NCBI RefSeq assembly: GCF_009498295.1 | Contig: NZ_CP040813.1 | Location: 1,035,001 to 1,099,000 of the forward strand | From: Oceanihabitans sp. IOP_32 | GTDB lineage: Bacteria > Bacteroidota > Bacteroidia > Flavobacteriales > Flavobacteriaceae | Direction of reading: 5' to 3' | DNA: 64,000 nt | Shown here: in pieces, positions 1 through 33,570 of the stretch | Layout of the letters: each line of letters starts with the position of its first letter | How positions within the stretch are numbered: position 1 is the stretch's first letter | The notes under the pieces: model-generated | What the model was told of the DNA's origin: nothing | The model's input: only the letters and a program-made list of their open reading frames with translations | Database searches by the model: none | Program-made: the position numbers and the translations under genes

Positions 1-963
1 GCCACCGTAAGTGTTATAACCGTTGCGGCTTTTTCCGTCCCATTGTATGATTTTATCATTGGAAAAACGAAAGGTTGCTTCCATGGTATCGTACATCTCC
101 CAGCCATCATTTACAAAATGTCTTTTAGCAGCTTCAACTTCAACGTGCATAGGTAAATCTACACCCAAGGCCCAACGTGCTACATCGAGTTCATGTGTTG
201 CGTTGTTGCCAGCTTCGGCAGTGCCGTATTCCCAACCGTACCAATGCCAATTATAATCCCAAGTCTCTTCGGTATATTCACGTCGTGGTGCTGGGCCTTG
301 CCAGAGCTCCCAATCTAATCCCTGTGGAACAGCAGCCTTTTTTTGAACCGGCACCTCCCCTCGTAGATTGTTGTAAAAGGCAACGGCTTTATATGGCGTC
401 CCTATAACCCCATTATGGATTTCTTTTATTATTTCGATAGTATGAACCGAAGAACGTTGTTGGTTCCCCATTTGAACTACTTTATTATACTTTTTTGCAG
501 CTTGAACTAATAATTCGTTTTCAAACAAGTTATGACTACTCGGTTTTTCTACAAATACATTTTGTCCAGCTTGTAAAGCTAAAATAGATCCAGGTGCATG
601 CCAGTGATCTGGTGTTGCGTTAATTAAAGCATCTACCTTCGAATCTGCAATCACTTTTAGGATATCATTCTCTAATTTAGGTTTATAATCTATGTGTTCG
701 GAAAAATTTTTCATCGCTTTTGTGCGCTGACTTTCCATAACATCACACAAATACAATAAGTTCACATTAGCCTCTTTTTTTGCAATAGGCTCATAAAAAG
801 CACCCAATCGTCGTCCAAGACCCGCGATGGCCACATTAATTCTGTCGTTGGCACCAATAATCCTGCGATAACTGCTGGCTGGCATAGCCATTGCAGAACT
901 ACCCATCGCAACAGCCGCAGTTCCCAAAATTGTTTTTGTTATAAAATTTCTCCTTGAAGTCAT
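1..963 (-). CDS. Gfo/Idh/MocA family oxidoreductase, Tat-exported (3' part cut by window edge)
   Basis: Reading leftward from the ATG at 961-963, an open frame of 321 codons runs off the window edge, so the C-terminus is missing. The N-terminus has a twin-arginine signal (TSRRNFITKT followed by a small-residue hydrophobic stretch), which points to export of a folded, cofactor-loaded enzyme. The Rossmann motif VAIAGLGRRLG follows, then ATPDHWHAP and the family hallmark EKP (FVEKPSSH), which contributes to NAD(P) binding and catalysis. Family members oxidise or reduce sugar hydroxyls with tightly held NAD(P). The gene starts 12 bp after the DUF1080 gene and ends the leftward PUL set. In Bacteroidota this pairing is associated with periplasmic 3-keto-sugar chemistry. 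The exact substrate is inferred only from the neighbouring uronate genes. Confidence 0.9.
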   Translation of the reverse strand, partial: MTSRRNFITKTILGTAAVAMGSSAMAMPASSYRRIIGANDRINVAIAGLGRRLGAFYEPIAKKEANVNLLYLCDVMESQRTKAMKNFSEHIDYKPKLENDILKVIADSKVDALINATPDHWHAPGSILALQAGQNVFVEKPSSHNLFENELLVQAAKKYNKVVQMGNQQRSSVHTIEIIKEIHNGVIGTPYKAVAFYNNLRGEVPVQKKAAVPQGLDWELWQGPAPRREYTEETWDYNWHWYGWEYGTAEAGNNATHELDVARWALGVDLPMHVEVEAAKRHFVNDGWEMYDTMEATFRFSNDKIIQWDGKSRNGYNTYGG

Positions 964-975
964 ATTAAAGTGAAT

Positions 976-2358
976 TTAAAGTGATTTAATTTTTACGTTT
1001 CTGAAGGACACTCGATCACCGTGGTCTTGCAGCAAGATTTGCCCAGTTTCAGCTTCTCCAAAATTAGGCCATTGAGTATATTTACTATTAGAAACCAGTT
1101 TTTTGAATTCTGGACTTTTACGTTCGTATTCCAAAACCTTTTTACCATTTAACCAATGCTCTATTTGATTGTTTTTTGAAACGATATAAGCCGTATTCCA
1201 TTGTCCTATAGGATTTACTGGTTTGTTCGGGTCTGCTTGAATTAAATCGTATAAAGAGGCCATTGTTCTGCTGCCTTCATGACTTCCTAACTTGGCATCA
1301 GGGTGTTTGGCATCATCCAAAATCTGGTACTCTAAGCCTATAGAAGACCCAGGACCTTTGTTAATTTCGGTATCTACATAATACTTAATGCCGCTGTTAG
1401 CGCCCTCGGTAATTTTAAAATCTAGCATCAATTCGAAATCGCCATAATTCTTGGTGGTTACAATATCGCCTCCTGCGGCAGATTCGCCTCCCCCTGTAGA
1501 CAAGACGGTTAGCTCTCCATTTTCAATCACCCATCCTTCTTCAGGAAAGGTTTCCAATCTGGCACCACGCCAACCATTAGTCGTCTCTCCATCCCAAAGC
1601 ATTTCCCATCCTTGATTTACCTCGTTACTCGTGAGTTTGTTAATTTTATCTACTACAGGTAGCTCACTTTTTTGAGCATAAGCTTCTAGATTCTCCGTAA
1701 GAATACGAACATTTTTCCATGCTATTTCAGTTCCAGGCTTCATGTCACCATAAAGACCGTGAACCTGCAGTCCTATAAATCCGCTCGCCGTTTGATCGTC
1801 CATTAAATGCGCCGCTGGCACCCCGTTAATCCATGTTCTTATAGTGTCGCCAATAGCTTCTATTCTGTAATGGTTCCATTCGTTTTGTTTAAACGCTTTT
1901 TTTGCCGCGGTGTTATCATCAGCCACTGGGTGTAACCATCCTCTTCTTGCTTCGTCGTACACTCCTGCGCTCCAACCACGTTCCGATGGATCAATTTCAA
2001 TTTGATACCCGTGAACCCTACCACTCATATAATGTGGTAAGCTGTTACTCCTAATCTGGATTCCCGAATTCATATTCGGATCTACCTTATACTCCAATTC
2101 CAATATAAAATCGTCGTACATTTCATTTGAAGTTAAAAAGGTATTGGGTTGTTCATTAGCGGTAGTACCTACAATGGCTCCTTCTCGCACTTCATATTCT
2201 GCATTCCCGCCTTTTATAGTCCATCCGTTAAGTGTTTCTCCATCGAATAAATCTACCCACGGCGTGGTGTCTTTTTTCGCGTTCTCACAACCTAAAAGCG
2301 CAAAGGCTAAAAGAAATGGCAAAACTTTAATTGAGCGACATTTAATTATTGATTTCAT
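976..2358 (-). CDS. Tandem DUF1080 (3-keto-disaccharide hydrolase-like) lipoprotein
   Basis: This 460-aa protein begins with a lipoprotein signal (hydrophobic LPFLLAFALLGC, lipobox Cys near residue 24), so it should be anchored in the periplasm or outer membrane. It holds two copies of the DUF1080 / 3-keto-disaccharide hydrolase fold, which is a concanavalin-like beta-sandwich. The first copy starts near residue 34 (LFDGETLNGW) and the second near residue 250 (LWDGETTNGW). Each contains the SGI(Q/K) strand and an EYQI or YQIEID-type segment typical of the family. Family members are linked to cleavage of glycosides oxidised at C3, and the adjacent Gfo/Idh/MocA oxidoreductase would supply such substrates. 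Most homologues have a single domain, so the duplication is notable. Substrate is unknown. The fold call is confident and the reaction is inferred. Confidence 0.88.
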   Translation of the reverse strand: MKSIIKCRSIKVLPFLLAFALLGCENAKKDTTPWVDLFDGETLNGWTIKGGNAEYEVREGAIVGTTANEQPNTFLTSNEMYDDFILELEYKVDPNMNSGIQIRSNSLPHYMSGRVHGYQIEIDPSERGWSAGVYDEARRGWLHPVADDNTAAKKAFKQNEWNHYRIEAIGDTIRTWINGVPAAHLMDDQTASGFIGLQVHGLYGDMKPGTEIAWKNVRILTENLEAYAQKSELPVVDKINKLTSNEVNQGWEMLWDGETTNGWRGARLETFPEEGWVIENGELTVLSTGGGESAAGGDIVTTKNYGDFELMLDFKITEGANSGIKYYVDTEINKGPGSSIGLEYQILDDAKHPDAKLGSHEGSRTMASLYDLIQADPNKPVNPIGQWNTAYIVSKNNQIEHWLNGKKVLEYERKSPEFKKLVSNSKYTQWPNFGEAETGQILLQDHGDRVSFRNVKIKSL

Positions 2359-2444
2359 TTATATATTTTTTTGTTTAACATTAATTTAAAAATCACAACA
2401 AGTGCGACACTCTAGATGCTTAAATTTATAAGTCTTATTATTTT

Positions 2445-4391
2445 TTATGGGTTTTCTCTATAAAAATCGCTTAAAACAAAAAATGCTTTTTTCGGATTTC
2501 CATTATCATCAATTAGTCCTTTTAAATTCCAATAATCTTGAATACCTTGTCTTAAACGAAGTGTAGATCTAAAATCTTTTAAAACCCAAGGAGACATTCC
2601 AACAGCACCTTTCTGATTTTTGTACATCTCAATTTGCTTTTTATAAACCAAAGCCTGATATTCTTCACTAAAGATTTCGATATCCTCTTCTTTAGCAGAT
2701 TTACCTCTTTTTGCTCCCGCCCCTAATTCACTAAATACGAAAGGTTTATTGTCTGGAATATGAAGACGTATTTTATGCATGTTTTCTAAAATTACTTGTC
2801 TTGCTTTTACAGGTTCGATATTGATTTGAGGCGCTAAAAACGCAGCATAATACCATCCAAAATACTGGTTTATGGCTGGCAAATCGACAATAGAAGCTAA
2901 AGGATCGTCTATTTGTATATCCCAAGTATCAAATTCTTTTCCTGCGATGGTTGGGAAAAAATAATCCTTTGCCATAGCCCCAATTTCGTCACCTCCAAAA
3001 ACGAGAGCCGCAGTAGTTAAGCGGGTATTATCTAAATTTTTTACATAGGTGTTTAAGTTTCTAAAAAACGCGTTACGCGCATCGCTCTTTGGGGTTTCAT
3101 TACCAAGACTCCAGAACACGATACTCGCTCTATTTTGATCTCTGCTTATCATTTCGTTCATCCTAGTTTCTGCCATAGCTAAAACCTCTGGTTTTTCAAA
3201 TTCAAGATCCCAGTATACGGGAATCTCAGCCCACACTAAAAGTCCCATCTTATCAGCTGCCTTTAGCATATACTCATTATGTGTATAATGTGCTAAACGT
3301 ACAAAATTGGTGTTTAAGCGTTTTGCAGCCGATAATAATTCAATAGCATGCTCATAACTATACGCACGACCATCTGTACCTATGGCTTCTTCATGAATAG
3401 ATATGCCTTTTAACATGATAGGCTTGTCGTTTAAAAGCACTTGCCCATCTTCCATTTTTATGGTTCTAAACCCTATTTGATCCTTTACATTTTCGTTGTT
3501 AAATGCCAGTTCGACATCATACAATTTAGGATTAGATATCGACCAGAACTCAGGCTTAGCCTTAATTTCAATTTCGGCTCTACCATTTTTAACTGTGAAA
3601 GTTTTATTTATTTTGAGCTCAGGGATTTTGATTTCTACTTTTCCTTCGGAAACTCCATTTACCATTACCCAACCTACAATTTGTTTATTGTTTTGTGGGT
3701 TCAACTGTATCTTATAGTTCTCTATATAGGCATTAGGAAGCTCTACTAGATTTACATCTCTTGTAATACCTCCGTAATTCATCCAATCTGTTCGAGTAGT
3801 AGGAATATCTTGATCGGTTAGGGTATTATCAACTTTTACCACCACAAGATTGTCTCCGTCTTTAACAAAGTTTGTTATTTCACAATTAAAGGAAGTATAA
3901 CCTCCTATATGGCTACCCGCATGCTCGCCATTAATATAAACTTGCGCATTATAATTAACGGCTCCAAAATGGATGAAATAGCGCTTATCGGCTTTCTTTT
4001 GAAGATTAAAATCCCGTTTATACCAAACTCTTCCATTGTAAAAAAACAATCGATCGTCTTGTGTGTTCCAATCGCCTGGAACCCTTAAGGTCGCACCATC
4101 TTCCAAAGAGATTTCCATTAATTCGCCTGGTACTGCCTTATGATTTCGTTCTGCAAAACGGAAGAAATCATTAAAAATATTTTGTTTGTTGGGATCAATC
4201 AACACATTCCAAGTACCATTTAAAGATTGTGTCGTTCTACCTTCAATATTACCTATTAATGGTTCTGTAGGCAGATTTGTGTTTTTCTTTTTTTGAAATA
4301 AATCTTGCGCTGCAATAGTTGCAGAAGTAAATAACATAAGGCATAAAAAAAGTCCGTATGTTTTACCGTTGAGATTTTTGTTGTTCTTCAT
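2445..4391 (-). CDS. Glycoside hydrolase family 2, beta-glucuronidase-like
   Basis: This 648-aa GH2 enzyme has a signal peptide (cleavage near TIAAQD, residue 29), an N-terminal sugar-binding jelly roll (about 50-215), an immunoglobulin-like domain (about 216-310) and a TIM barrel. The acid/base is Glu432 in WSLGNETP and the nucleophile is Glu555 in FVFSELGAG. The C-terminal part (SEEYQ at 575-579, PWVLKDFR, then NLKGLI) follows the E. coli beta-glucuronidase layout by eye. It includes an NxK motif (Asn622, Lys624), the pair that recognises the carboxylate of glucuronate in beta-glucuronidases. NxKG also occurs in other GH2 enzymes, so a beta-galactosidase remains possible. Placement with UxaC and UxuA favours release of glucuronate in the periplasm. 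Confidence 0.9.
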   Translation of the reverse strand: MKNNKNLNGKTYGLFLCLMLFTSATIAAQDLFQKKKNTNLPTEPLIGNIEGRTTQSLNGTWNVLIDPNKQNIFNDFFRFAERNHKAVPGELMEISLEDGATLRVPGDWNTQDDRLFFYNGRVWYKRDFNLQKKADKRYFIHFGAVNYNAQVYINGEHAGSHIGGYTSFNCEITNFVKDGDNLVVVKVDNTLTDQDIPTTRTDWMNYGGITRDVNLVELPNAYIENYKIQLNPQNNKQIVGWVMVNGVSEGKVEIKIPELKINKTFTVKNGRAEIEIKAKPEFWSISNPKLYDVELAFNNENVKDQIGFRTIKMEDGQVLLNDKPIMLKGISIHEEAIGTDGRAYSYEHAIELLSAAKRLNTNFVRLAHYTHNEYMLKAADKMGLLVWAEIPVYWDLEFEKPEVLAMAETRMNEMISRDQNRASIVFWSLGNETPKSDARNAFFRNLNTYVKNLDNTRLTTAALVFGGDEIGAMAKDYFFPTIAGKEFDTWDIQIDDPLASIVDLPAINQYFGWYYAAFLAPQINIEPVKARQVILENMHKIRLHIPDNKPFVFSELGAGAKRGKSAKEEDIEIFSEEYQALVYKKQIEMYKNQKGAVGMSPWVLKDFRSTLRLRQGIQDYWNLKGLIDDNGNPKKAFFVLSDFYRENP

Positions 4392-4600: not shown

Positions 4601-5488
4601 CTATTTGGTATTGTTTAAATACCCCTGCACGTCTAACCAATCTTGAAAACGATGAATCCAACCATCGACAGGTAAATTCTTTTTTTGCATCCCAAAGCCA
4701 TGACCGCCCTTAGAGTAAATATGTAATTCAGCAGATTTTCCCGAAGCTATCCAATCGTTAAATAATTTTGTACTACTAGTTGCTGGAACTAACAAATCGT
4801 CTGCTGCTGTCAATATGAATGCTGGTGGTGCATCCGATGGAACTGTATTTTGTTTAAGTGGATCGGTAAAAGCATAAATAGGCACCACAAAATCAGGACG
4901 GTTCCCGACTCCTTCCGGACTAAAAACGGTTCCTGTTGCTACAGTACCCCCAGCTGAAAACCCCATGATACCAATTCTGTCTTTTTTGATATTATATTTA
5001 TCGGCGTTATCGCGCAGATATTTAATTGATTTTGATGCATCGTGTATTGCAAAGGACACGATAGGTGCGATTATAGAATCAAATCTTTTTCTATTTGCTG
5101 TAGAAAACCTTATCGCTTTGCCTGAAGCATCAAATTGCGATTTTACCAAGCGGTATTTAAAAACAAAAGCAGTTATGCCAATAGAGTTTAACCACTTCGC
5201 TACGGCTGTTCCCTCTTTGTTAATGGCTAGATGATGGAAACCTCCTCCTGGACAAATGATTACCGAAGTGCCATTATTTAAAGTTTTTTCTGGAGTATAA
5301 ACTGTTAATGTTGGCTCGACAACATTATAGACCGTGTGCCATTGATGGGTTGTATCGGTTAATATTTTCTTTTCTTGCCAATTCCAATGCTCTGAACCTG
5401 GCGCTTTATCAGGGTAAAGAGAAATAACATTTTGTGCTTCTGAAATAAAAGCAATTAAAAGAAAAATAATTAAAATTCTGTTTTTCAT
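4601..5488 (-). CDS. Alpha/beta-hydrolase esterase, exported, carbohydrate-esterase-like
   Basis: The ATG at 5488 is preferred over an ATG seven codons upstream (5509), because it directly opens a signal peptide (MKNRILIIFLLIAFISEA); this gives 295 residues. Numbering from the upstream ATG, the oxyanion motif PGGGF lies near 87-91, the nucleophile Ser185 in GFSAG, a probable catalytic Asp at 237 or 238 (AADDLLVP), and His270 in GGHGFGM. This is the layout of the Aes / acetyl-xylan-esterase-like group. In this PUL it probably removes acetyl or similar ester groups from the polysaccharide before or alongside the GH2 enzyme. It is not a CE15 glucuronoyl esterase, since the CE15 serine motif is absent. 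It lies between susD (99 bp away) and the GH2 gene (209 bp away). Confidence 0.85.
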   Translation of the reverse strand: MKNRILIIFLLIAFISEAQNVISLYPDKAPGSEHWNWQEKKILTDTTHQWHTVYNVVEPTLTVYTPEKTLNNGTSVIICPGGGFHHLAINKEGTAVAKWLNSIGITAFVFKYRLVKSQFDASGKAIRFSTANRKRFDSIIAPIVSFAIHDASKSIKYLRDNADKYNIKKDRIGIMGFSAGGTVATGTVFSPEGVGNRPDFVVPIYAFTDPLKQNTVPSDAPPAFILTAADDLLVPATSSTKLFNDWIASGKSAELHIYSKGGHGFGMQKKNLPVDGWIHRFQDWLDVQGYLNNTK

Positions 5489-5586
5489 AATTAGTCTTAT
5501 TTTAAACACTACAATGATTAATTAATTATTACCTATTTAAATGCGTTATTACTTTATAATAACGCATTTAAAATATTTTTAAACGA

Positions 5587-7245
5587 CTAATTATAGCCTG
5601 GATTTTGCTCTAAAACAGCATCCTTATTCAGATCAATTTCCGATTGAGGGATTGGTAACAGTAAATGGGTATTACTAATGCCTGTAATTTTCTGACCTCT
5701 AACCCCTACTCTATTAACCAATTGCCCTGTGCGCATCAAGGTCATTCTTCGATTTTCTTCTGCTAAAAGCTCTCTAGCTCGTTCGTCCAGAATAAAATCT
5801 AAGGTGATATCTCCGGCTGCAACAGGCGTTGCATTGGCACGATTTCTAAGCACATTAATGGTAGCGGCAGCTTCTGCCAGTTTTCCTTGTTTGAACTGTG
5901 CTTCAGCTTTTAAGAGGTAAGTCTCGCCTAAACGCATAATAATGATGTCTTTAATCATCGCAAATCCAAAAGGATCGTTAGCATCAAATTGATTCCACTT
6001 CGTGGTTACAGGCACAATAAACCGCTGGGTATTTACGTTAGGATCTGTGATATCCACTTTTTGTCCGAATAATGCAAAATCTGGATCGTTGTAATAATAA
6101 TCTCTTCTCAGGTTGTATTTTGAGTTTCGCATGTCGTCAACTGCATAAAGATCATCTAATACCCAATCTGTAAGCGCAATTCTGCTAATACCTCTTCCTC
6201 CCAAAGAATCTGCAAGTACCATTCCCGCTTGTTGGTGGTAACGTGAGCCCCAAACTCTTCGATGTTGAGGCGACCCAATTAAATAACTATCTAAACCTAC
6301 AGAAAACTCACCAGAACCTCCAATAACTGAAGCAGGGTTTTCAATCTCTAGTACCCAAATTGCCTCGGTATTACCTTGAGATCTTCTTTGATTGCCATAG
6401 ATAAACATATCTGAAAATGGATCTCCGGGCTGACTTGCCTTAACGCCGTATCGTTGAGTTACCAAACTAAAATCACCACTATCTATAATCGCATTACAAG
6501 TGGCTTCTGCAAGATCATTTTTACCCATTCTCAAATAAGCTTCAGCAAGGACTTGTTCTGCCATGGCTACATGTGCTCTTGAATACATTTTACCTTTTGA
6601 GTTCCCATCTACATTATTAACTGTAGGGAGATTGTTTCTAGCAAAGGTTAAATCATCTTCTATAAGTGTATTCAATTCGTCTAACGAAGCCTTTTCAAAA
6701 TCGGTCTTAGGACCATCAACTGTGGCCGTTATCATTGGCACCCTTCCAAATAGTGTTACCAACGTATTATAAGCTAGTCCTCTGTAAAATTTTGCTTCTC
6801 CCTCTATCTTAGCTTTTGCTGCTGGCTCTAAAACGGTCTCAGGATTACCTATCGCTGCTATAATTGAATTCGCATTGTTGATAATTTTATAACCCCATAC
6901 CCATGTAAATAATACGGCTGGATCTGTAGGCGTAAGATTCTCATAATTAGTGTAAGGAACAGTCCATGGATCAAAATCTGCTGGCGCCTTATTATAGGCC
7001 ACATCAGTCCCTATTTGCCAAACACCTAACCACCCTTGTCCTCCTGCAGAAGCGTAATCGTATGCAAAAGTTTGCCAGATGGAATATTGATTTTGAATAC
7101 CAATCAGAGCCGCATCTAATCCCAATTCATCATTTAGTTCGGTAGGATCGTAACTTGATAATAATTCTTCATCTAAAAAATCATCCTGGCATGAACTGAA
7201 AAGCATGAAAACTAAAAGACCAATGATATATATATTATTTTTCAT
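5587..7245 (-). CDS. SusD/RagB-family glycan-binding outer-membrane lipoprotein
   Basis: This 552-aa protein has a lipoprotein signal ending in FSSC (Cys about residue 19), followed by the SusD-typical start DDFLDEELLSSYDPTEL. TPR-like helices follow (AKFYRGLAYNTL, AEAYLRMGKNDLAEA), then the conserved C-terminal block with MRLGETYLLKAEA, RNRA and LAEENRRMTLMRTGQL. SusD proteins sit on the cell surface over a SusC barrel and deliver bound oligosaccharides. The gene lies 30 bp downstream of the susC gene and is surely co-transcribed with it. The glycan cannot be read from the sequence, but the downstream uronate enzymes suggest a uronic-acid-containing polymer. Confidence 0.96.
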   Translation of the reverse strand: MKNNIYIIGLLVFMLFSSCQDDFLDEELLSSYDPTELNDELGLDAALIGIQNQYSIWQTFAYDYASAGGQGWLGVWQIGTDVAYNKAPADFDPWTVPYTNYENLTPTDPAVLFTWVWGYKIINNANSIIAAIGNPETVLEPAAKAKIEGEAKFYRGLAYNTLVTLFGRVPMITATVDGPKTDFEKASLDELNTLIEDDLTFARNNLPTVNNVDGNSKGKMYSRAHVAMAEQVLAEAYLRMGKNDLAEATCNAIIDSGDFSLVTQRYGVKASQPGDPFSDMFIYGNQRRSQGNTEAIWVLEIENPASVIGGSGEFSVGLDSYLIGSPQHRRVWGSRYHQQAGMVLADSLGGRGISRIALTDWVLDDLYAVDDMRNSKYNLRRDYYYNDPDFALFGQKVDITDPNVNTQRFIVPVTTKWNQFDANDPFGFAMIKDIIIMRLGETYLLKAEAQFKQGKLAEAAATINVLRNRANATPVAAGDITLDFILDERARELLAEENRRMTLMRTGQLVNRVGVRGQKITGISNTHLLLPIPQSEIDLNKDAVLEQNPGYN

Positions 7246-7275: not shown

Positions 7276-10221
7276 TTATTTCAAAGTGATATTCACTCCA
7301 ATAGTATACACCGAAGTTAATGGATAACTATTGCTATCGAATGCGGTACTTTTATCGAAATCTGCTTCTGGATCCCATCCAAACCAATTGGTCCAAGTGG
7401 CTAGGTTTCTACCGCTCATGTACACCGTTAATCCTCCTAAACCTAATTTGTCGAGTGTTTTGTTATTGGCTACATAACTTAAAGTAATATCTTTAAGTCG
7501 CGTATAACTCGCATCTTTTGGATAGTTATAAGATTTTGTATTGGTATAAGAAAGCGCTGGAATCGAATTGTTCTGGTTAGCAGCTGTCCAATACCCAAGA
7601 CCTGAAGGTAAATTTTGTCGCCCTCCAAAATCTCTAAAATCTAACAAATTGTTATCTTTAGTAATACCCTGAGCCGTTTCTATAAAAACATTTAAATGAA
7701 AGTCCTTATAACGGAAGGTATTAGTGATACCACCCGTCCATTTTGGAGTGGACTGTCCTAAAATAACTTTATCATCTGCACTAATAACCCCATCACCATT
7801 TGTATCGGCAAATTTGATATCGCCTGGCACTGCTGAAGGATCTACTCCTGATGGATCCTCGCCTACTTGCCATATTCCAACTTGCTTATAGTCGTACACG
7901 GCACTAATTGGCTCTCCTATAAACCATCCATTACCAACATCGTCTTTTTTATCGCCATACAAATCAACAATTTCATTTTTATTGGTAGCAAAATTGGCAC
8001 TAGTTTCCCATCTAAAATTATCGTTATTAACAATAGTTCCTTTTAAAGATATTTCTAATCCTTTATTAGAAACTTCACCTAAATTTTGCAGTACTTGACT
8101 GTAACCTGTTATATTAGGTATCGCTCGTAATAACAATAAATCTTCGGTGTTTGTGCTGTAAACATCAATACTACCTGAAATTCTGCGATCTAAAAACTCA
8201 AAATCTACACCAACATTAGTACCAAGCGTGCTTTCCCAAGTAAGATCTCTGTTTCCTAATACATTGGCCACAACTCCTACCGTACTTACGCCATTAAATG
8301 GCAATCTAACCGTACTTGCTGTTGATGACGTAACGTTTGGATCGATAGCCTGATTTCCAGAAAGCCCATAAGAAGCTCTTAATTTTAAACTATTTACAAA
8401 TTCTGAATCTTCTAAAAACTTTTCGTTAGAAATATTCCACCCTAAGGCTACCGAAGGAAACAAACCATATTTTGAGGTATTCGACCCAAAAGCAGAATAT
8501 CCGTCTCGCCTTGCAGTAGCAGTAAATAAATATTTGCTATCGTATGAATAATTAACTCTTAACATTTGCGACAAAAGTGTCGACTTGTAACCTTGTGAGC
8601 TCGCTGAAGTCGAAGATGCCGTTGATAGATTATTAAATGACAACTGATCGTTAATAAACCCTGAAGCTGTAGTTGAAGAAGAAAAGAAATCGGTTTGCTG
8701 CGCACTGTAAAGTCCAGTAACCGCAATATTATGCACACCAAAACTTTTGTTGTAATTAAAGATATTCTCTACCGTCATACTTCTCGTTTCACTATTAGAC
8801 ACTACAGCTGTACCTAATAAATCGCCTGTTTTTCTACCCAAATAACTTCTAAATTGTGTTGGAACGAAAGTATAACCCGCATTTAACTTATATGAAAACC
8901 CAGGTAAAAATTTAGGCTTTAAATCAAAAAAAGCATTGGCGCTAATATTTTGATTTCGTTCTTTACGCGGACTGTTCAACCTAGCCATTGGACTTCGGTA
9001 AACCAGTTCGCCAAACATCGGGTACACCTCATAATCTCCGTTATCATCGTACAGTGAACCATAAGGACTTATTCTACCTGCTAATGTTAAATTAGTGCGA
9101 CCACCATCAAAATTATTGTTGGTTAAAAACAAATTAACACCCGCATCTAAAGAAGGACTTATTTTGGCATTGATGTTAGAACGCACACTAGCACGTTGAA
9201 AGTTATACCCTTTTAGCACCCCTTTTTGTTCCAAGAGATCCCCTGAAATATAGTACTTCACATTTTCGCTACCTCCAGAGATACTCACATTATAGTTTTG
9301 AATAACCCCGAGCTGATCAACCTCATCTAACCAATCGGTAGTTTGTCCGTTGGCATAGTTCTCCTGCTCATATTGATTTGGCAAAACATTGGTATCTGTT
9401 GATCCAGACTGCGTCTTCCAATCGGCGTATTTCTGAACATATTCTGCTGGCCCCATAGGATTTATTCTATTGGCAAACGTTTCAATACCGCCGTAAGTAT
9501 TCAGTTTTATAACAGGCTTTCCAGTTTTACCTTTTTTAGTGGTAATTAAAATAACCCCATTAGCCCCTCTAGTTCCATAAATTGCAACTGCAGAAGCATC
9601 TTTTAAAATTTCTAACGACTCAATATCATTAGGGTTAATGTCATTTAAAGACCCACCGGTAGTACTAAACGGCATACCATCCAGCACAATAAACGGCCCT
9701 GTGGACGCACTAATTGAACTCGCCCCACGAATTTGTGCCGAGGTTCCACTTCCAGGAGCAGATGAGCTTTGGGTTACACTTACCCCAGCAACGGCACCCT
9801 GTACAGACTGCAATACATTAGTAACAGGAAGCTGAGAAAGCCGCTCTTTAGACAAGGAAGTAACAGCACCTGTTACATCAGACCTTTTCTGTGTACCATA
9901 CCCAACAATTACAATTTCATCTAAAGCGCTAGCAGAGGGTGCTAACTTAACATTAATAGTGGTTTGCTCACCAACAACAATTTCGGTGTTTTCGTAACCA
10001 ACATAACTAAATGATAGCACGGCTGTCTTATCATCGACCATAATAGTGTAATTGCCATCAAAATCGGTAGCGACACCTTTACTCGTACCTTTTACAAGAA
10101 CAGAAGCGCCTGGTAGAGGTTGATCGTTTTCATCTACTATTGATCCAGAGATTTCGATTCCCTCCTGGCCGTAAATTGCGGCAGAAAAACAAAGTAGAAG
10201 TGTTAAAATGGATTTTTTCAT
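7276..10221 (-). CDS. SusC/RagA-family TonB-dependent outer-membrane transporter
   Basis: This 981-aa protein starts with a signal peptide (ILTLLLCFSAAIYGQ). A CarboxypepD_reg-like domain follows (about 20-100, GSIVDENDQPLPGASVLVKG), then the TonB-box region and plug (DEIVIVGYGTQKRSDVTGAV, TRGANGVILITTKKGK), then a 22-strand barrel ending in the aromatic-rich VYTIGVNITLK. SusC proteins import oligosaccharides captured by SusD, powered by TonB-ExbB-ExbD; a set of those genes lies at 34.9-37.0 kb. Length is normal for the family. It is the first gene of the leftward PUL set, with a promoter candidate about 125 bp upstream. No N-terminal anti-sigma-interacting STN domain is visible, and no sigma/anti-sigma pair is nearby. 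Confidence 0.97.
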   Translation of the reverse strand: MKKSILTLLLCFSAAIYGQEGIEISGSIVDENDQPLPGASVLVKGTSKGVATDFDGNYTIMVDDKTAVLSFSYVGYENTEIVVGEQTTINVKLAPSASALDEIVIVGYGTQKRSDVTGAVTSLSKERLSQLPVTNVLQSVQGAVAGVSVTQSSSAPGSGTSAQIRGASSISASTGPFIVLDGMPFSTTGGSLNDINPNDIESLEILKDASAVAIYGTRGANGVILITTKKGKTGKPVIKLNTYGGIETFANRINPMGPAEYVQKYADWKTQSGSTDTNVLPNQYEQENYANGQTTDWLDEVDQLGVIQNYNVSISGGSENVKYYISGDLLEQKGVLKGYNFQRASVRSNINAKISPSLDAGVNLFLTNNNFDGGRTNLTLAGRISPYGSLYDDNGDYEVYPMFGELVYRSPMARLNSPRKERNQNISANAFFDLKPKFLPGFSYKLNAGYTFVPTQFRSYLGRKTGDLLGTAVVSNSETRSMTVENIFNYNKSFGVHNIAVTGLYSAQQTDFFSSSTTASGFINDQLSFNNLSTASSTSASSQGYKSTLLSQMLRVNYSYDSKYLFTATARRDGYSAFGSNTSKYGLFPSVALGWNISNEKFLEDSEFVNSLKLRASYGLSGNQAIDPNVTSSTASTVRLPFNGVSTVGVVANVLGNRDLTWESTLGTNVGVDFEFLDRRISGSIDVYSTNTEDLLLLRAIPNITGYSQVLQNLGEVSNKGLEISLKGTIVNNDNFRWETSANFATNKNEIVDLYGDKKDDVGNGWFIGEPISAVYDYKQVGIWQVGEDPSGVDPSAVPGDIKFADTNGDGVISADDKVILGQSTPKWTGGITNTFRYKDFHLNVFIETAQGITKDNNLLDFRDFGGRQNLPSGLGYWTAANQNNSIPALSYTNTKSYNYPKDASYTRLKDITLSYVANNKTLDKLGLGGLTVYMSGRNLATWTNWFGWDPEADFDKSTAFDSNSYPLTSVYTIGVNITLK

Positions 10222-10765: not shown

Positions 10766-11593
10766 ATGAGTAAAATAATAGCATTGACAGGAGCTGGAGG
10801 TATTCTGTGTAGCACTTTGGCCAAAGCCTTAGCAAAACAGGGCCATAAAATAGCCGTTTTAGATTTGAGAATTGAAGCAGCAAAGCACATCGCAAATGAG
10901 ATTGAAAATGATGGTGGTATTGCCATAGCTGTAGAAGCTAATGTTTTAGAAAAAGAATCTTTACAGATAGCTAAAAAAGAAATTAACGAAAAATTAGGAC
11001 CATGCGACATCCTTATTAATGGCGCTGGTGGAAATCATCCCTTAGGCACCACTTCAAATTCCTTTTTAAAAGAAGAAGATATGCTAAATGACACCGATGG
11101 CTTTAAGACATTTTTCGATTTAGATCCAGAGGGTATTAAATTTGTATTTGACCTGAATTTTATTGGTACTCTGCTTCCTACTCAAGTTTTTGCTACAGAT
11201 ATGGTAGGAAGATCCGGTTGCAGTATTTTAAACATCTCTTCAATGAATGCTTTTACACCATTAACTAAAATTCCTGCATATAGCGGAGCTAAAGCTGCGG
11301 TTTCGAATTTTACACAGTGGCTGGCTGTACATTTTTCAAAAGTTGGCATTCGTGTAAATGCCATCGCACCAGGGTTTTTCTTAACAGATCAAAACAGATC
11401 TTTATTAACAGAAAACGATGGTAGCTTAACACAAAGGGGGCAGCAAATTATAGACCAAACTCCAATGGGACGGTATGGCGAACCTGAAGATCTCGTAGGC
11501 ACCACGCTATGGTTGTGCGGAGATGGCTCTAAATTCGTTACAGGGGTTGTTGTGCCAATCGATGGCGGTTTTGCAGCTTATAGTGGCGTTTAG
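10766..11593 (+). CDS. SDR-family D-mannonate / D-fructuronate oxidoreductase
   Basis: This 275-aa short-chain dehydrogenase has the NAD(P) motif TGAGGIL (residues 8-14), NGAGG at 85-89, the catalytic Ser158/Ser159 (NISSMN) and the Tyr172-x3-Lys176 pair (YSGAK). The C-terminal GGDGxxFVTG-type segment (CGDGSKFVTG) is also present. It heads the rightward operon, followed by uxuA and uxaC. The unfilled step between their products is reduction of fructuronate to mannonate, so this enzyme most likely does that job in place of the unrelated long-chain UxuB. SDR-type fructuronate reductases are known in other bacteria. The family is certain and the substrate is inferred from context. Confidence 0.87.
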   Translation: MSKIIALTGAGGILCSTLAKALAKQGHKIAVLDLRIEAAKHIANEIENDGGIAIAVEANVLEKESLQIAKKEINEKLGPCDILINGAGGNHPLGTTSNSFLKEEDMLNDTDGFKTFFDLDPEGIKFVFDLNFIGTLLPTQVFATDMVGRSGCSILNISSMNAFTPLTKIPAYSGAKAAVSNFTQWLAVHFSKVGIRVNAIAPGFFLTDQNRSLLTENDGSLTQRGQQIIDQTPMGRYGEPEDLVGTTLWLCGDGSKFVTGVVVPIDGGFAAYSGV

Positions 11594-11706: not shown

Positions 11707-12888
11707 ATGAATTTAGAACAAACATGGCGTTGGTACGGTCCGAATGATCCCGTATCCTTATCAGATATTAGACAGGCAGGTGCAACAGGAATTGTAACGG
11801 CATTACATCACATTCCTAATGGTGAAGTATGGCCAATTGAGGAAATAAAAAAACGCAAACAAATTATTGAGCAAGGAGGCCTAACTTGGTCTGTTGTAGA
11901 AAGTGTTCCTGTTCACGAAGCCATTAAAACTCAGTCTGGAAACTTCCAAACTTACATCGATAACTATAAACAAACGCTTATAAACCTCGGAGAATGTGGT
12001 ATAGATACCGTTTGCTATAATTTTATGCCTGTGCTGGATTGGACCCGCACGAGCTTAGATTATGAAGTTGAAGACGGCTCAAAAGCTTTACGTTTTGACG
12101 CCACAGCATTCACGGTATTTGAAGTTTTTTTACTGCAAAGACCAGGAGCAAAAGCGAACTATACACCAAAACAATTGACTGCTGCAGAAACCCTGCTTAA
12201 AAACATGAGCGAGGCCGACAAAAATTTGTTAATAAAAAACATTATTGCCGGTTTGCCTGGAGCAGAAGAGGGCTATACTTTAAAAGAGTTTAATGCCATT
12301 CTTGCTACGTACCAAAACATAGGCCCAAAAGAACTAAAAAAACATCTGTTTTATTTTCTAGAGCAGATTATTCCAGTGGCCGAAAAAGCAGGTATTCTAA
12401 TGTGTATTCATCCTGATGACCCACCCTATCCTATTTTAGGATTACCACGAGTAGTGAGTACTGAACAAGATATTTTAGAACTATACCAAGCAGTCGACAG
12501 CCCAAATAACGGCTTAACTTTTTGTACAGGTTCATTTGGGGTCATTCCAGAGAACGATTTAGTACCTATGGTAGAACGTTTGGGGGATAGAATTCATTTT
12601 ATCCATTTAAGAAGTACACAAAGAGATGCGCTTGGTAATTTTTACGAAGCCAATCATTTAGAAGGTGATGTTGACATGTATGGTGTTATGAAAGCTTTAG
12701 TATTAGAACAACGAAAACGAAAAAAATCAAATAGAAAAGATTTAAGAATGCCAATGCGTCCAGATCACGGGCATTTAATGCTGGATGATTTAAATAAAAA
12801 AACAAATCCTGGGTATTCAGCAATCGGCAGATTGAGAGGCTTGGCAGAATTAAGGGGCTTGGAATTAGGAATTTCTAAAAGCCTTTAA
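11707..12888 (+). CDS. uxuA: Mannonate dehydratase
   Basis: This 393-aa protein matches UxuA, the metal-dependent TIM-barrel enzyme that dehydrates D-mannonate to 2-keto-3-deoxygluconate. Hallmarks are the start [14 protein letters not shown], the [15 protein letters not shown] block, [20 protein letters not shown] and the C-terminal [11 protein letters not shown]. These carry the His, Cys and Asp metal and active-site residues of the family. Length is normal (E. coli UxuA is 394 aa). It ends only 2 bp before uxaC, so the two are translationally close. It acts in the cytosol. Confidence 0.97.
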
Positions 12889-12890
12889 TC

Positions 12891-14300
12891 ATGGAGCACA
12901 TAAATTCGAAACGTTTTATTACAGATAATTTTTTACTCAACTCGAAAGAGGCTGAAACGCTTTATCATGATTATGCTAAAGTTATGCCCATAATCGACTA
13001 CCACAATCATTTATCGCCAAAGCAAATAGCAGAAAATTTACCCATTAATAATATTACAGATGCTTGGTTAAGTGGCGATCATTACAAGTGGCGAGCCATG
13101 CGAGCCAATGGCATCGAAGAAAAGCACATTACAGGAAACACCTCAAAAGAAGAGAAATTCCAGAAATGGGCAGAAACTGTGCCTTACACCTTGCGAAACC
13201 CATTATTCCATTGGACACAATTAGAATTGAAAAGGTATTTTAATATCGATGCTATTTTGCAACCAAGTACTTCTGAGGTCATTTACAAAAAAGCCAATAC
13301 CCATTTAAGCTCTAAAACACCAGCACAGTTACTCGAGGAGATGAATGTAGAGGTCATTTGTACCACCGATGATCCCACAGATAATCTAGAACATCACCAA
13401 GCCATTGCTAAAAAGAAGTTTTTTACCAAAGTATTACCAACATTTAGATCAGATAATTTACTTTCAATACAACATGACGGATTTAATGATTACTTAAAAA
13501 AATTAACCTCTTGTGTTGGTTTTTCAATTGATAATTTAGAAGATTTAGTAAATGCTATCCAAAATCGAGTTGATTTTTTTAATACACACGGTTGTCGTTT
13601 GTCTGATTATGGTTTAGAACAAATTTACGCATACCAATTCACAGAAAAAGAAGCAGATAACATTTTAAAAAAACGATTAAATAATGAAAATATAACACAA
13701 GATGAAGCCCGTATATACGCTTCGTTTATTTTATATACGTTGTGTAAAATGTATCACGCCAAAGGTTGGGTGCAACAATTTCATTTGGGGGCTCTGCGTA
13801 ACAATAATAGTCGTTTATTAAAAGAAGTTGGTGCAGATGTGGGCTGCGATTCTATCGGCGATTTTAGTCAAGCAAAACCAATGTCGACTTTGTTTAATCA
13901 ATTAGACGCAGAAAACTGTTTGAGCAAAACCATAGTTTATAATTTAAACCCATCACAAAATGAGGTTTTTGCAACCATGATGGGAAATTATGGCGAGGCT
14001 GGTATTCCAGGAAAAATGCAATTTGGATCTGGATGGTGGTTTTTAGATCAGAAAGATGGCATGGAAAAACAGATGAACACCCTTTCAAACATGGGGTTAT
14101 TTAGTCGTTTTGTAGGAATGTTAACAGACAGTCGCAGTTTTTTATCTTTTCCAAGACATGAATACTTTAGAAGGATTTTATGTGATTTGATGGCAGAAGA
14201 CATCAAAAAAGGGATCGTACCAAACGATATCCCTTTTATTGGTAAAATGATACAAGATATCTGTTATAACAATGCCGTAAAATATTTTGAATTCAAATAA
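12891..14300 (+). CDS. uxaC: Glucuronate isomerase
   Basis: This 469-aa amidohydrolase-fold enzyme has the family motif DYHNHLSPKQIAEN (metal-binding HNH near residues 38-40), LWLSGDHYKWRAMR-like text (DAWLSGDHYKWRAMRANG) and the C-terminal GWWFLDQKDGMEKQ and DSRSFLSFPRHEYFRR blocks. UxaC interconverts D-glucuronate with D-fructuronate, and D-galacturonate with D-tagaturonate. Downstream mannonate enzymes indicate the glucuronate branch here; no tagaturonate reductase (UxaB) or altronate dehydratase (UxaA) is present. Length is normal. It is followed by the TRAP genes after 97 bp. Confidence 0.97.
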   Translation: MEHINSKRFITDNFLLNSKEAETLYHDYAKVMPIIDYHNHLSPKQIAENLPINNITDAWLSGDHYKWRAMRANGIEEKHITGNTSKEEKFQKWAETVPYTLRNPLFHWTQLELKRYFNIDAILQPSTSEVIYKKANTHLSSKTPAQLLEEMNVEVICTTDDPTDNLEHHQAIAKKKFFTKVLPTFRSDNLLSIQHDGFNDYLKKLTSCVGFSIDNLEDLVNAIQNRVDFFNTHGCRLSDYGLEQIYAYQFTEKEADNILKKRLNNENITQDEARIYASFILYTLCKMYHAKGWVQQFHLGALRNNNSRLLKEVGADVGCDSIGDFSQAKPMSTLFNQLDAENCLSKTIVYNLNPSQNEVFATMMGNYGEAGIPGKMQFGSGWWFLDQKDGMEKQMNTLSNMGLFSRFVGMLTDSRSFLSFPRHEYFRRILCDLMAEDIKKGIVPNDIPFIGKMIQDICYNNAVKYFEFK

Positions 14301-14397: not shown

Positions 14398-15372
14398 ATG
14401 AAGCATAAATTATCATTCATAATCATCCTCTTTCTAAGCATGTTTTCGTGCAAAAACAATGATGGCACAAAGGTTTTGTATTTTGGTCACAATTCGCCAC
14501 AAACACACCCAGTGCACAAAGGGGTATTAGAATTTAAAAAAGTTTTAGAAGAAAAATCTAATGGTTCTCTAAGCGTTAAAATTTTTCCAGATGCCCAATT
14601 GGGTTCAGAAAGGGAAGTTCTTGAGCTGTTACAAATTGGAAGTGTGGCCGCTACCAAGGTAAGTGCAGCCACTTTGTCTAATTTTGTGCCCGAATACCAT
14701 ATTTTAGGAATACCCTACTTATTTAGAGATGAAGCACATCGCTTTGATGTTTTAGAGGGGCCTATAGGTAAATCGATTTTAGAAAAAGGCTCGAAATTTT
14801 GGCTTCGCGGTCTTTGTTTTTACGACGCCGGAAGTAGAAGTTTTTACACCAGTACAAAAGCAATTAGAACACCAGATGATTTAGAAAGACTTAAAATTAG
14901 AGTCATGAATAACCAAATGGCTATAAATATGGTAAATGCCATGGGGGGATCTGCCACGCCATTAGCTTATGGAGAACTATACACCGCAATTCAACAAGGT
15001 GTTGTAGATGGCGCCGAGAACAATCCGCCATCGTTTGTATCTTCCAATCATTACGAAATTAGCAAATACTATACTTTAGACGAACATTCTGCCGTACCCG
15101 ATGTCCTCATAATAGGAACGAAGTATTGGGATAAATTATCAGATCAAGAAAAAAATTGGGTTCAAGAAGCTGCCAATAAATCTGCTCAAGCTCAAAAAGT
15201 GTTTTGGAAAGCATCGGTTGAAAAATCAATGAAAATAGCAAAAGACGCTGGAGTAGAAATTATAATTCCAGATAAATCCTTATTTGCAGAAAAATCTAAA
15301 TCTGTTATTAAAGAATTTATCGAAGAGCATCCAGAGATGGAAACCACTATAAATCAAATTAAAAATAAATAA
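14398..15372 (+). CDS. TRAP transporter solute-binding protein (DctP family), lipoprotein
   Basis: This 324-aa DctP-family receptor opens with a lipoprotein signal (IILFLSMFSCKNN, Cys18), whereas most TRAP receptors are soluble periplasmic proteins. Family motifs are GHNSPQTHPVHKG, FPDAQLGSEREVLE, the domain hinge LKIRVMNNQ (its Arg normally makes the salt bridge to the substrate carboxylate), TPLAYGELYTAIQQGVVDGAEN and LSDQEKNWVQEAA. Position right after uxaC and before DctQ/DctM indicates a hexuronate ligand. TRAP receptors of the related DUF/DctP group bind glucuronate and galacturonate in proteobacteria. The ligand is inferred. Confidence 0.95.
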   Translation: MKHKLSFIIILFLSMFSCKNNDGTKVLYFGHNSPQTHPVHKGVLEFKKVLEEKSNGSLSVKIFPDAQLGSEREVLELLQIGSVAATKVSAATLSNFVPEYHILGIPYLFRDEAHRFDVLEGPIGKSILEKGSKFWLRGLCFYDAGSRSFYTSTKAIRTPDDLERLKIRVMNNQMAINMVNAMGGSATPLAYGELYTAIQQGVVDGAENNPPSFVSSNHYEISKYYTLDEHSAVPDVLIIGTKYWDKLSDQEKNWVQEAANKSAQAQKVFWKASVEKSMKIAKDAGVEIIIPDKSLFAEKSKSVIKEFIEEHPEMETTINQIKNK

Positions 15373-15374
15373 GC

Positions 15375-15866
15375 ATGCGAAAATCCGTAATTATTTTTAA
15401 TACAGTAAATAAACTACTAGAATGGTTCTTAATTGTCATTTTTGCCCTTTTAGTTTTAGATGTGTTATTTCAAGTTTTTTCAAGATACCTATTGGGTCAA
15501 TCTTTTGCGTGGACGGAAGAATTTGCACGTTTTTCATTAATTTGGATGACCGTTCTTGGTGCGGCATACCTGAACGCCAAAAAAGAACATTTGTCTATGG
15601 ATTTTGTTTACGATAAGCTGTCTATTACCAATAAAAAAAGAGCTTCTATACTCATTGAAATATTAGTATTTCTTTTTGCACTTATCGTCATGGTTATTGG
15701 CGGATCCAACTTGGTATATATCACCTTACATTTAGAGCAACTTTCAGGTACCTTAAGAATTCCGCTAGGTTATGTATACGCTATAATGCCGTTTAGCGGA
15801 TTGCTTATTATGTGCTTCTCTATCTATCATATTTCAAATATTCTTTCAAACAAAAACAAAATTTAA
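15375..15866 (+). CDS. TRAP transporter small membrane subunit DctQ
   Basis: This 163-aa protein has four predicted membrane helices (WFLIVIFALLVLDVLFQ, FSLIWMTVLGAAYL, ILVFLFALIVMVIGG, YVYAIMPFSGLLIMC). It carries the DctQ signature FSRYLLGQSFAWTEEFARF between helices one and two. It starts 2 bp after the receptor gene and ends 2 bp before DctM. DctQ subunits pair with DctM in the inner membrane; the precise role is a scaffold or part of the sodium-driven elevator mechanism. Confidence 0.93.
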   Translation: MRKSVIIFNTVNKLLEWFLIVIFALLVLDVLFQVFSRYLLGQSFAWTEEFARFSLIWMTVLGAAYLNAKKEHLSMDFVYDKLSITNKKRASILIEILVFLFALIVMVIGGSNLVYITLHLEQLSGTLRIPLGYVYAIMPFSGLLIMCFSIYHISNILSNKNKI

Positions 15867-15868
15867 TT

Positions 15869-17173
15869 ATGAGCATAGAAATTATAAGTATTATTGTTTT
15901 GTTTGTTAGTTTCTTTGTGTTGCTGTTGTTAAAAGTTCCAGTTGCCTACAGTATTGGGATTTCAACAACTTTAAGTTTATTGTTAAATATTGACAAACTA
16001 CCTGGTTTAACCACCATAGCACAACGGATGACCACTGGTATTGATAGTTTTGCTCTATTAGCAATTCCCTTTTTTATACTGGCAGGAGAAATCATGAAAC
16101 GTGGCGGTATCGCGAATAGACTCATAAATTTTGCTAAATCTTTAGTAGCCAGTTTGCCTGGAGGCTTAGCCTATGTAAATGTCTTAGCATCTATGCTTTT
16201 TGGTGCCATTTCTGGTTCTGCATTAGCAGCGGCATCGGCCATTGGCTCAATAATGACAGATAGAATGGAAGAAGAAGGTTACCCAAGAACCTTAAGTGCT
16301 TCGGTTAATATCACGGCTTCTACCACTGGTTTGTTAATTCCACCTAGCAATATTTTAATTGTATACGCTTTAGCTAGTGGCGGGACTGCGTCGGTTGCGG
16401 CTCTTTTTATTGCCGGTTACATTCCGGGAATTTTATTGGGTTTTGCCATCATGGGCTATGTAGCGTTTATAGCCATCAGCAAAAAATTTAAAAGAGGAGA
16501 AAGGGCCACTTTTTCTCAAGTCTGGAACTTTTTTAGAAAGGCTTTCTTTAGTTTATTACTATTGGTTATTGTAGTTGGCGGCATCGTGGCAGGAATTTTT
16601 ACGGCTACCGAAGCCTCGGTAATCGCAGTACTTTATGCCGCTGTACTAGCATTAATTTATGGGGATATAAAAACTAAGGACTTTCCTGATATTTTATTAA
16701 CTAGTGCAAAAACGACCGCTGTAGTGATGTTTTTAATATGCACCTCTATGGCCATGTCTTGGTTATTTTCTTTTGAAGGTATCCCAGAAATGATAAGTGC
16801 ATTTTTACTGGAATCGTTAAACCATAAAATCGCCATTTTTTTAGCCATTAATTTAATTCTGTTAGTCATTGGGACTTTTATGGATATGACGCCTGCCGTT
16901 TTAATATTCACCCCAATATTTCTTCCAGTAGTCACCACTCTAGGAATGGACCCCGTGCATTTTGGAATTGTCATTGTATTAAACCTATGTATTGGAATTT
17001 GTACACCACCTGTAGGCACGCTGCTTTTCGTTGGTAGTGGGGTAGCCAAAGTTTCGGTTACACAAGTAATAAAACCTTTACTGCCTTTTTTGGGAATTAT
17101 GGTAGTGGTTTTAATGTTGATAACTTATATTGAAGAGATCTCTATGTTTTTACCACGATTATTCAATTTATAA
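15869..17173 (+). CDS. TRAP transporter large permease DctM
   Basis: This 434-aa protein starts at the ATG at 15869, chosen because it opens MSIEIISIIV and leaves a 2-bp gap after DctQ. A longer frame from 15812 would overlap dctQ. It has about 12 hydrophobic helices and the DctM motifs AGEIMKRGGIANRLI, GAISGSALAAASAIGSIM, LLIPPSNILIVYA, GTFMDMTPAVLIFTPIFLPV and GICTPPVGTLLFVG. It is the Na+-coupled channel subunit of the TRAP transporter. With the receptor and DctQ it should bring free uronate from periplasm to cytosol. TRAP systems are not the usual importer in Bacteroidota PULs. Confidence 0.95.
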   Translation: MSIEIISIIVLFVSFFVLLLLKVPVAYSIGISTTLSLLLNIDKLPGLTTIAQRMTTGIDSFALLAIPFFILAGEIMKRGGIANRLINFAKSLVASLPGGLAYVNVLASMLFGAISGSALAAASAIGSIMTDRMEEEGYPRTLSASVNITASTTGLLIPPSNILIVYALASGGTASVAALFIAGYIPGILLGFAIMGYVAFIAISKKFKRGERATFSQVWNFFRKAFFSLLLLVIVVGGIVAGIFTATEASVIAVLYAAVLALIYGDIKTKDFPDILLTSAKTTAVVMFLICTSMAMSWLFSFEGIPEMISAFLLESLNHKIAIFLAINLILLVIGTFMDMTPAVLIFTPIFLPVVTTLGMDPVHFGIVIVLNLCIGICTPPVGTLLFVGSGVAKVSVTQVIKPLLPFLGIMVVVLMLITYIEEISMFLPRLFNL

Positions 17174-18368: not shown

Positions 18369-19043
18369 ATGGCACAATTTTCAAGATTAGAAGTCGCACA
18401 AACCATGAAAGAAACAGGCATGATTCCGTTGTTTTTTCATAATGATATTGAATTAAGTAAAAAAGTACTAAAAGCCTGCTACGATGGCGGCGCTAGATTA
18501 ATGGAATTTACTGCACGTGGTGATTTTGCCCATGAGGTTTTTGGAGAATTAACAAAATATGCTATAGCTGAACTCCCCGGAATGATAATGGGTGTGGGGT
18601 CCGTTACCGATGCCGCTTCGGCTTCACAATTTATGGCTTTAGGAGCTAATTTTATAGTAACCCCAGTACTTAGGGAAGATATTGCTATAGTCTGTAACCG
18701 CAGAAAAGTATTGTGGTCTCCAGGTTGTGGCACCTTAACCGAAATAGCACGAGCAGAAGAATTAGGTTGTGAAATTGTAAAACTTTTTCCAGGAGACATT
18801 TATGGGCCTCAATTTGTAAAAGGTATAAAAGGGCCTCAACCGTGGACGAGTATTATGCCAACAGGGGGTGTATCGCCAACAAAGGAAAACTTATTAGGAT
18901 GGTTTAATGCTGGTGTTACTTGTGTGGGTATGGGCTCTCAATTAATCTCAAAAGACATTATTGCAAATAAAGATTATAAAAAGTTAGAACAGAATGTTAA
19001 AGCAGCTCTTGCTCTCATAAAAAAGATAAGAGGCCATCATTAG
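18369..19043 (+). CDS. eda: KDPG / 4-hydroxy-2-oxoglutarate aldolase
   Basis: This 224-aa class I aldolase has Glu46 in RLMEFTARGD (the general base), the Schiff-base Lys138 in IVKLFPGDIYGP, GANFIVTPV, WSPGCGTLTE and MPTGGVSP near the C-terminal phosphate site. It cleaves 2-keto-3-deoxy-6-phosphogluconate to pyruvate and glyceraldehyde-3-phosphate, the last step of the uronate route. It is 124 bp downstream of kdgK, a wider gap than elsewhere in the operon, and is the last gene before an 18-bp perfect inverted repeat. Confidence 0.95.
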   Translation: MAQFSRLEVAQTMKETGMIPLFFHNDIELSKKVLKACYDGGARLMEFTARGDFAHEVFGELTKYAIAELPGMIMGVGSVTDAASASQFMALGANFIVTPVLREDIAIVCNRRKVLWSPGCGTLTEIARAEELGCEIVKLFPGDIYGPQFVKGIKGPQPWTSIMPTGGVSPTKENLLGWFNAGVTCVGMGSQLISKDIIANKDYKKLEQNVKAALALIKKIRGHH

Positions 19044-33331: not shown

Positions 33332-33339
33332 CTATAGTG

Positions 33340-33568: not shown

Positions 33569-33570
33569 AG

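Follow-up and report, generated by a model that had tools for sequence, protein, structure and literature searches.

What do an exported oxidoreductase and a lipoprotein with two DUF1080 domains contribute to a glucuronate locus that also encodes a GH2 enzyme? The locus lies in Oceanihabitans sp. IOP_32, whose 3.48 Mb genome is a single contig (C1); the window, the whole stretch of DNA analysed here, is C1:1035001-1099000 (64,000 nucleotides). A minus-strand operon encodes, in transcription order, SusC, SusD, an alpha/beta hydrolase, the GH2 enzyme, the tandem DUF1080 lipoprotein, and two Gfo/Idh/MocA oxidoreductases, Gfo1 and Gfo2. The successive gaps from SusC to Gfo1 are 30, 77, 209, 86, and 12 bp, and Gfo1 and Gfo2 are separated by 7 bp. 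Coordinates, E-values for PF06439, and the twin-arginine translocation (Tat) motif confirm what an earlier note on this DNA had described, a Tat-signalled Gfo/Idh/MocA enzyme 12 bp from a two-DUF1080 lipoprotein beside a GH2 enzyme. On balance, we favor the reading that the enzymes of the DUF1080-Gfo cassette are exported and split glycosides of glucuronic acid in a stepwise manner.

The tandem protein matches PF06439 with 310 bits (curated cut-off, 26.8). Domains 1 and 2 (D1 and D2) separately score 156 and 165 bits, and the two PF06439 domains are detected at E 3.3e-48 and 1.8e-45; a profile search of the host genome found no further DUF1080 domains. The AlphaFold model of the chain has a mean pLDDT of 88.5, and a strict lipobox pattern is present in at least 61 of 78 tandem homologues. 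In a Foldseek search, D2 matches 8tda, 8v31, 8rr2, and 9fbe with 35-38% identity (prob 1.00). According to the Protein Data Bank (PDB) titles, from which the names of solved enzymes, including the Alistipes ones, are taken, the relatives of D2 are 3-keto-2-hydroxy-glucal hydratases (a Bacteroides thetaiotaomicron protein and Alistipes AL2) and 3-keto-glycoside eliminase/hydratases (8rr2 and 9fbe). For D1, the one close match is its counterpart in 4jqt; its other DUF1080 matches have E-values of 3e-7 to 0.2. The two domains are homologous (hhalign probability 98%, 25% identity), D1 retaining stretches that match D2 (NSG, YQ, WN, WxNG, and QxH). Across 37 proteins, 46 of 189 positions are invariant in D1 and 77 of 211 in D2.

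D2 occurs as a stand-alone gene adjoining Gfo1 in loci L181, L182, and L185, and D1 as a stand-alone gene within the SusC/D-UxaC locus L184, which fits two separable functions in one chain. One domain may catalyze elimination and the other hydration, but a single domain could do both, judging from the PDB title of 8rr2. A D1-type domain is also found within a long chain in L187 (8398-11733, 1111 aa) and L188 (7734-11012); the L187 chain also contains DUF7133, cytochrome c, and F5/8-type domains and thus looks like a fusion of DUF1080 with an electron-transfer partner. The tandem layout, which the earlier note had called unusual, turns out to be common. The full-length protein is encoded in 88 of 299 genomes of the host family and in most of the 43 genomes that gave a match in a phylum-wide set of 198, and the structure 4jqt (BT3469 of B. 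thetaiotaomicron) has the same two-domain chain, with 55% identity over 430 columns. One homologue (L015, G211:C11:297200-298546) contains an in-frame TAG and is a pseudogene or reflects a sequence error.

Gfo1 is truncated by the window edge (321 of 447 residues inside); the full gene is C1:1034620-1035963 (L003:18620-19963). Its N-terminus, MTSRRNFITK, is a Tat-type motif, and the host genome encodes TatC. The twin-arginine motif is kept in 76 of 79 Gfo1 homologues and in all 43 Gfo2 homologues. In exported Gfo/Idh/MocA enzymes such as glucose-fructose oxidoreductase, the bound cofactor crosses the membrane and is recycled in place. Because Gfo1 is an NAD enzyme exported by Tat, by analogy it probably carries tightly bound NAD that would be recycled in the same way. 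In a profile search, the nearest solved relatives of Gfo1 are the Alistipes glucoside-3-dehydrogenase AL3 (8tdf/8tdh, 7e-40) and then DgpA. The best fold match is also 8tdf, with ~20% identity over the fold, and inositol and monosaccharide Gfo/Idh/MocA enzymes are among the fold neighbors. Among curated models, BT_2158 glycoside 3-dehydrogenase (NF058561) scores best. Judged by homology, C3 chemistry is supported in the sense that the proteins would work like these enzymes, not in the sense that they belong to the same families. A GH109 assignment for Gfo1 and Gfo2 was rejected, as only generic Gfo/Idh/MocA domains are matched, and 8tdf and DgpA rank far ahead of 6t2b and 2ixa. Gfo2 came to light on reading left of position 1, where the earlier note had advised looking for further 3-keto enzymes. 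It is conserved in 43 of 80 named loci and is a possible 3-keto reductase or second dehydrogenase.

Within the host family, the link between the cassette and uronate genes is strong. Among the 299 genomes, UxaC accompanies a full-length tandem protein in 83 of 88 cases, whereas 31 of the 211 other genomes have UxaC (odds ratio 96; Fisher 5e-41, a p-value that is too small because the genomes share ancestry, although the contrast with the controls holds). With one genome per genus, the numbers are 69 of 72 and 22 of 163. The odds ratio is 1.8 for GH92, a general glycan marker, and 2.3 for single-domain DUF1080 without the tandem protein. GH92 was substituted for rhamnose isomerase, which is useless as a control, its family occurring in none of the genomes. 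Physical proximity agrees: of the 97 tandem genes, 28 are within 20 kb of UxaC (16 among the 59 close homologues, 12 among the 38 distant ones), versus ~1% expected for random placement. In L123, L125, L127, L129, and L130, which were chosen for a nearby UxaC and illustrate arrangement rather than frequency, the genes for a short-chain dehydrogenase/reductase (SDR), UxuA, UxaC, DctPQM, tandem DUF1080, and Gfo1 form same-strand runs. The association with UxaC against controls, at the genome and neighborhood levels, supports the glucuronate link of the earlier note, as does the lack of an altronate branch in the genome.

The 80 named loci were fetched by the tandem protein alone. Uronate catabolic genes are present in 28; 24 encode a BNR_4 protein or a fusion of a sulfatase with GH78, a trait shared with ulvan loci; 7 belong to both groups and 35 to neither, some of the latter carrying PL28, GH106, or GH78. 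Mapped onto a 118-protein tree of the tandem protein, the uronate label requires a minimum of 18 changes, 9 of them forced by well-supported branches, versus 38 when labels are shuffled. A 20-protein clade that lacks uronate genes largely coincides with the ulvan-type loci. A gene for myo-inositol oxygenase (MIOX), a glucuronate-making enzyme, is near the cassette in L062, L064, L067, L069, L075, L083, and L084, several of which also have UxuA and SDR. In L034 (12905-16354) and L035, the cassette adjoins a methylmalonyl-CoA mutase gene, and no carbohydrate genes were recognised in the vicinity, so stand-alone cassettes exist. A tandem protein with 66% identity occurs in a metagenome-assembled genome labelled Gammaproteobacteria (L095); because it nests inside the Flavobacteriaceae ulvan-type clade, it reflects mis-binning or transfer.

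The product of the cassette would enter a complete glucuronate route, divergent on the plus strand, that comprises SDR, UxuA, UxaC, a TRAP transporter, PfkB/2-keto-3-deoxygluconate (KDG) kinase, and KDPG aldolase. The isomerase, mannonate oxidoreductase, and mannonate dehydratase of this UxaC-UxuB-UxuA pathway all exceed their model cut-offs. Galacturonate was considered as the target and rejected, as altronate dehydratase, required for the galacturonate branch, was not found in the host genome, and SDR, UxuA, and UxaC make up the glucuronate set; the nearest relatives of GH2 alone are compatible with galacturonate too. Assignment of the locus as an ulvan polysaccharide utilization locus (PUL) was likewise rejected, as the surrounding reading frames include no ulvan lyase or rhamnosidase, and ulvan-type loci mostly form a separate clade.

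An NxK motif in loop 8 is a mark of beta-hexuronidases (PMC12243196). In the GH2 enzyme, N622-L-K aligns with the same motif of 6d89 and of the galacturonidase 7vqm, both among its best relatives, and E432 and E555 are the catalytic glutamate pair. Because the motif and both glutamates are present, the enzyme can be expected to hydrolyze glucuronides by itself. GH2 homologues are near the cassette in only 3 of 109 loci elsewhere; therefore, the cassette does not depend on GH2. The simplest reading is that two parallel routes lead to one product, with the linkages or decorated residues that GH2 rejects left to the stepwise route.

We propose the following sequence of events. SusC and SusD would bring an oligosaccharide or conjugate with a terminal glucuronate into the periplasm. 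There, Gfo1, exported folded via Tat, would oxidize the glucuronyl residue at C3, as its homologues suggest, and the tandem DUF1080 domains may share the half-reactions that follow. Gfo1 or Gfo2 would then reduce the 3-keto sugar back to glucuronate, which the TRAP transporter would take up and which UxaC, SDR, UxuA, KDG kinase, and KDPG aldolase, assigned by family models, would degrade. GH2 would cleave ordinary beta-glucuronides directly, and the stepwise route may thus serve linkages that GH2 cannot take. A more specific and more general version, which we consider rather unlikely, is that Bacteroidota have a widespread exported pathway for the non-hydrolytic cleavage of glucuronides and, in a sister clade, of ulvan oligosaccharides, in which one DUF1080 domain of a single tandem lipoprotein would catalyze elimination and the other hydration of the 3-keto-glucuronide.

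Several observations weigh against a glucuronide-directed cassette. We found no published assay for the cassette proteins or close family. Gfo1 (136 bits) and Gfo2 (88 bits) miss the BT_2158 equivalog cut-off of 750 bits. Neither is specifically close to the glucuronide-3-dehydrogenase P2B11 (8tdi), a Gfo/Idh/MocA enzyme that they resemble at the superfamily level only (Gfo1, 8e-4, and absent from its profile matches at 1e-8; Gfo2, 9e-14, rank 12). The GH2 of the operon could suffice for the job. Phylum-wide, the uronate link is weaker, with uronate or KDG genes nearby in ~4 of 20 loci. Finally, the synteny comparison that the earlier note had called for partly counts against its proposal: 68 of 118 tandem loci are without a uronate catabolic gene within the fetched DNA, although some of them are ulvan-type loci, which likewise involve glucuronate.

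An alternative that we regard as unlikely is that the sugar split off stepwise is a neutral or deoxy one (e.g., glucose or rhamnose) linked to glucuronate in the same glycans, and that the uronate genes are adjacent by substrate co-occurrence. The characterised relatives (8tdf and BT2157/BT2158) act on glucosides, uronate genes are missing from many loci, and most of the 20-protein clade belongs to loci of the ulvan or rhamnose-rich kind, which carry GH78, GH106, and PL28. However, the cassette is embedded directly in the minimal glucuronate operons of L127, L129, and L130, its genome-level co-occurrence with UxaC is far above that with the general glycan marker, and the search of the host genome gave one weak GH78 match and no convincing GH78-type rhamnosidase. 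Conversion of free or unusual uronates (iduronate, methylated, or epimeric) through a 3-keto intermediate to D-glucuronate for UxaC, with no glycoside cleavage, is quite improbable. The DUF1080 domains resemble glycoside eliminase/hydratases, a step superfluous for epimerisation, and in the window the cassette belongs to a SusC/D PUL that includes GH2, even though the cassette is tied tightly, in operons, to UxaC and TRAP and not to glycosidases, MIOX is nearby in seven loci, and inositol and monosaccharide enzymes are among the fold neighbors. Least probable is that GH2 does all the cleavage, the DUF1080 domains being carbohydrate-binding modules and the Gfo proteins unrelated oxidoreductases: CBM66, whose fold is similar, appears in the Foldseek list behind the DUF1080 enzymes and D1 is weakly related to assayed members, but D2 is 35-38% identical to assayed enzymes and invariant at 77 of its 211 positions, and DUF1080-Gfo1 pairing is near universal among the loci, unlike the scarce GH2.

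The proposed glucuronide-directed stepwise glycosidase resembles several known systems. Alistipes AL2/AL3 and B. thetaiotaomicron BT2157/BT2158 (8v31, 8tdf, and 8tda) likewise pair a Gfo/Idh/MocA 3-dehydrogenase with a DUF1080 3-keto-2-hydroxy-glucal hydratase. In contrast to these, the locus described here has two DUF1080 domains per chain, glucuronate genes alongside, low Gfo1 identity, and no AP_endonuc_2 TIM-barrel partner except UxuA. BT3469 is known as a structure, titled putative glycosyl hydrolase, with no activity in the records seen. In Caulobacter, a DUF1080 step by CCNA_01705 has been proposed in periplasmic lactose oxidation by LacABC (PMC9007349). In this system, too, C3 is oxidized in the periplasm ahead of the DUF1080 step, but it uses a membrane LacABC dehydrogenase instead of an exported Gfo/Idh/MocA enzyme, lactose as substrate, and a single DUF1080 domain. 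In the ulvan pathway of Formosa agariphila (GH3, GH105, and the P29 dehydratase), a non-standard step removes terminal glucuronate from oligosaccharides, P29 reportedly catalyzing a cofactor-independent dehydration that yields a 4,5-unsaturated uronate; a GH3 with glucuronidase/iduronidase activity has also been reported (PMC8511951). Related cassettes sit in ulvan-type loci, whereas the window locus has no ulvan lyase or rhamnosidase nearby. P29_PDnc dehydratase was rejected as an explanation of the DUF1080 and Gfo proteins, being set apart by its description as cofactor-independent.

The oxidise-then-cleave route for uronides put forward in the earlier note is supported by homology to 3-keto-glycoside eliminase/hydratase and glucoside-3-dehydrogenase but is not a new idea, as 8tdi is already named for glucuronide C3 oxidation. 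Stepwise glycosidases in which a Gfo/Idh/MocA dehydrogenase acts together with a DUF1080 protein are known as well. Our literature search found nothing direct on a glucuronide 3-keto route or on DUF1080 in ulvan loci. New, within the literature searched, are the tandem-domain cassette, its conserved export, and the strong, repeated tie to the glucuronate pathway. Overall, the cassette is best read as a widespread variant of a known stepwise glycoside-cleavage pathway, probably directed at glucuronides.

Elsewhere in the window, positions 29154-31877 encode a secreted protein of 907 aa that contains several long, nearly identical repeats (GTIGTVDLADGAVTNTKITGGG...), and two tandem tRNA-Val (tac) genes are at 33339-33414 and 33570-33645.

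Table 1 Features of the locus (window positions unless stated otherwise)
Feature	Position	Strand	Basis or remark
Gfo1, Tat-signalled Gfo/Idh/MocA oxidoreductase, predicted glucuronide 3-dehydrogenase	1..963	-	PDB best 8tdf/8tdh; EKP and HxxD motifs
Tandem DUF1080 lipoprotein, 460 aa, predicted 3-keto-glycuronide eliminase/hydratase	976..2358	-	Two PF06439 domains
DUF1080 domain 1 (D1)	1702..2259	-	Conserved; distant from assayed enzymes; candidate roles eliminase, hydratase, or binding
DUF1080 domain 2 (D2)	985..1611	-	35-38% identity to 8tda, 8v31, 8rr2, and 9fbe
GH2 beta-hexuronidase, most likely beta-glucuronidase	2445..4391	-	E432 acid/base, E555 nucleophile, N622-L-K-G motif (protein numbering)
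Alpha/beta hydrolase, BD-FAE / acetyl-esterase-like	4601..5509	-	Family models
SusD-like glycan-binding lipoprotein	5587..7245	-	Domain match
SusC-like TonB-dependent transporter	7276..10221	-	Domain match
SDR, D-mannonate oxidoreductase (fructuronate reductase step)	10766..11593	+	PRK08277, 423 bits, cut-off 281
UxuA, mannonate dehydratase	11707..12888	+	590 bits, cut-off 199.55
UxaC, glucuronate isomerase	12891..14300	+	600 bits, cut-off 387
TRAP solute-binding protein DctP	14398..15372	+	Family models
Small TRAP subunit DctQ	15375..15866	+	Between DctP and DctM; homologues in same order in relatives
TRAP large subunit DctM	15869..17173	+	Domain match
PfkB sugar kinase, predicted KDG kinase	17204..18244	+	Family models
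KDPG aldolase	18369..19043	+	Family models
Gfo2, second Tat-signalled Gfo/Idh/MocA, 396 aa	C1:1033422-1034612 (L003:17422-18612), left of window	-	7 bp beyond Gfo1
LacI-type regulator	L003:16144-17211, left of window		Strand opposite to cassette
GH3 family lipoprotein	L003:13632-15845, left of window		Beyond LacI-type regulator gene

Stepwise oxidation, elimination, and hydration is a recently recognised alternative to classical glycosidases and has been described mainly for glucosides. If the proposed reading is true, a sizeable share of marine Bacteroidota, judging from the frequency of the tandem protein in the host family, would release glucuronic acid by an unannotated route. This route would serve algal and other glycans, including linkages and modified residues that GH2 enzymes may not cleave. 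The BT3469-type tandem structure, solved but functionless, would gain a testable substrate class, with UxaC and UxuA of the host operon as an assay readout.

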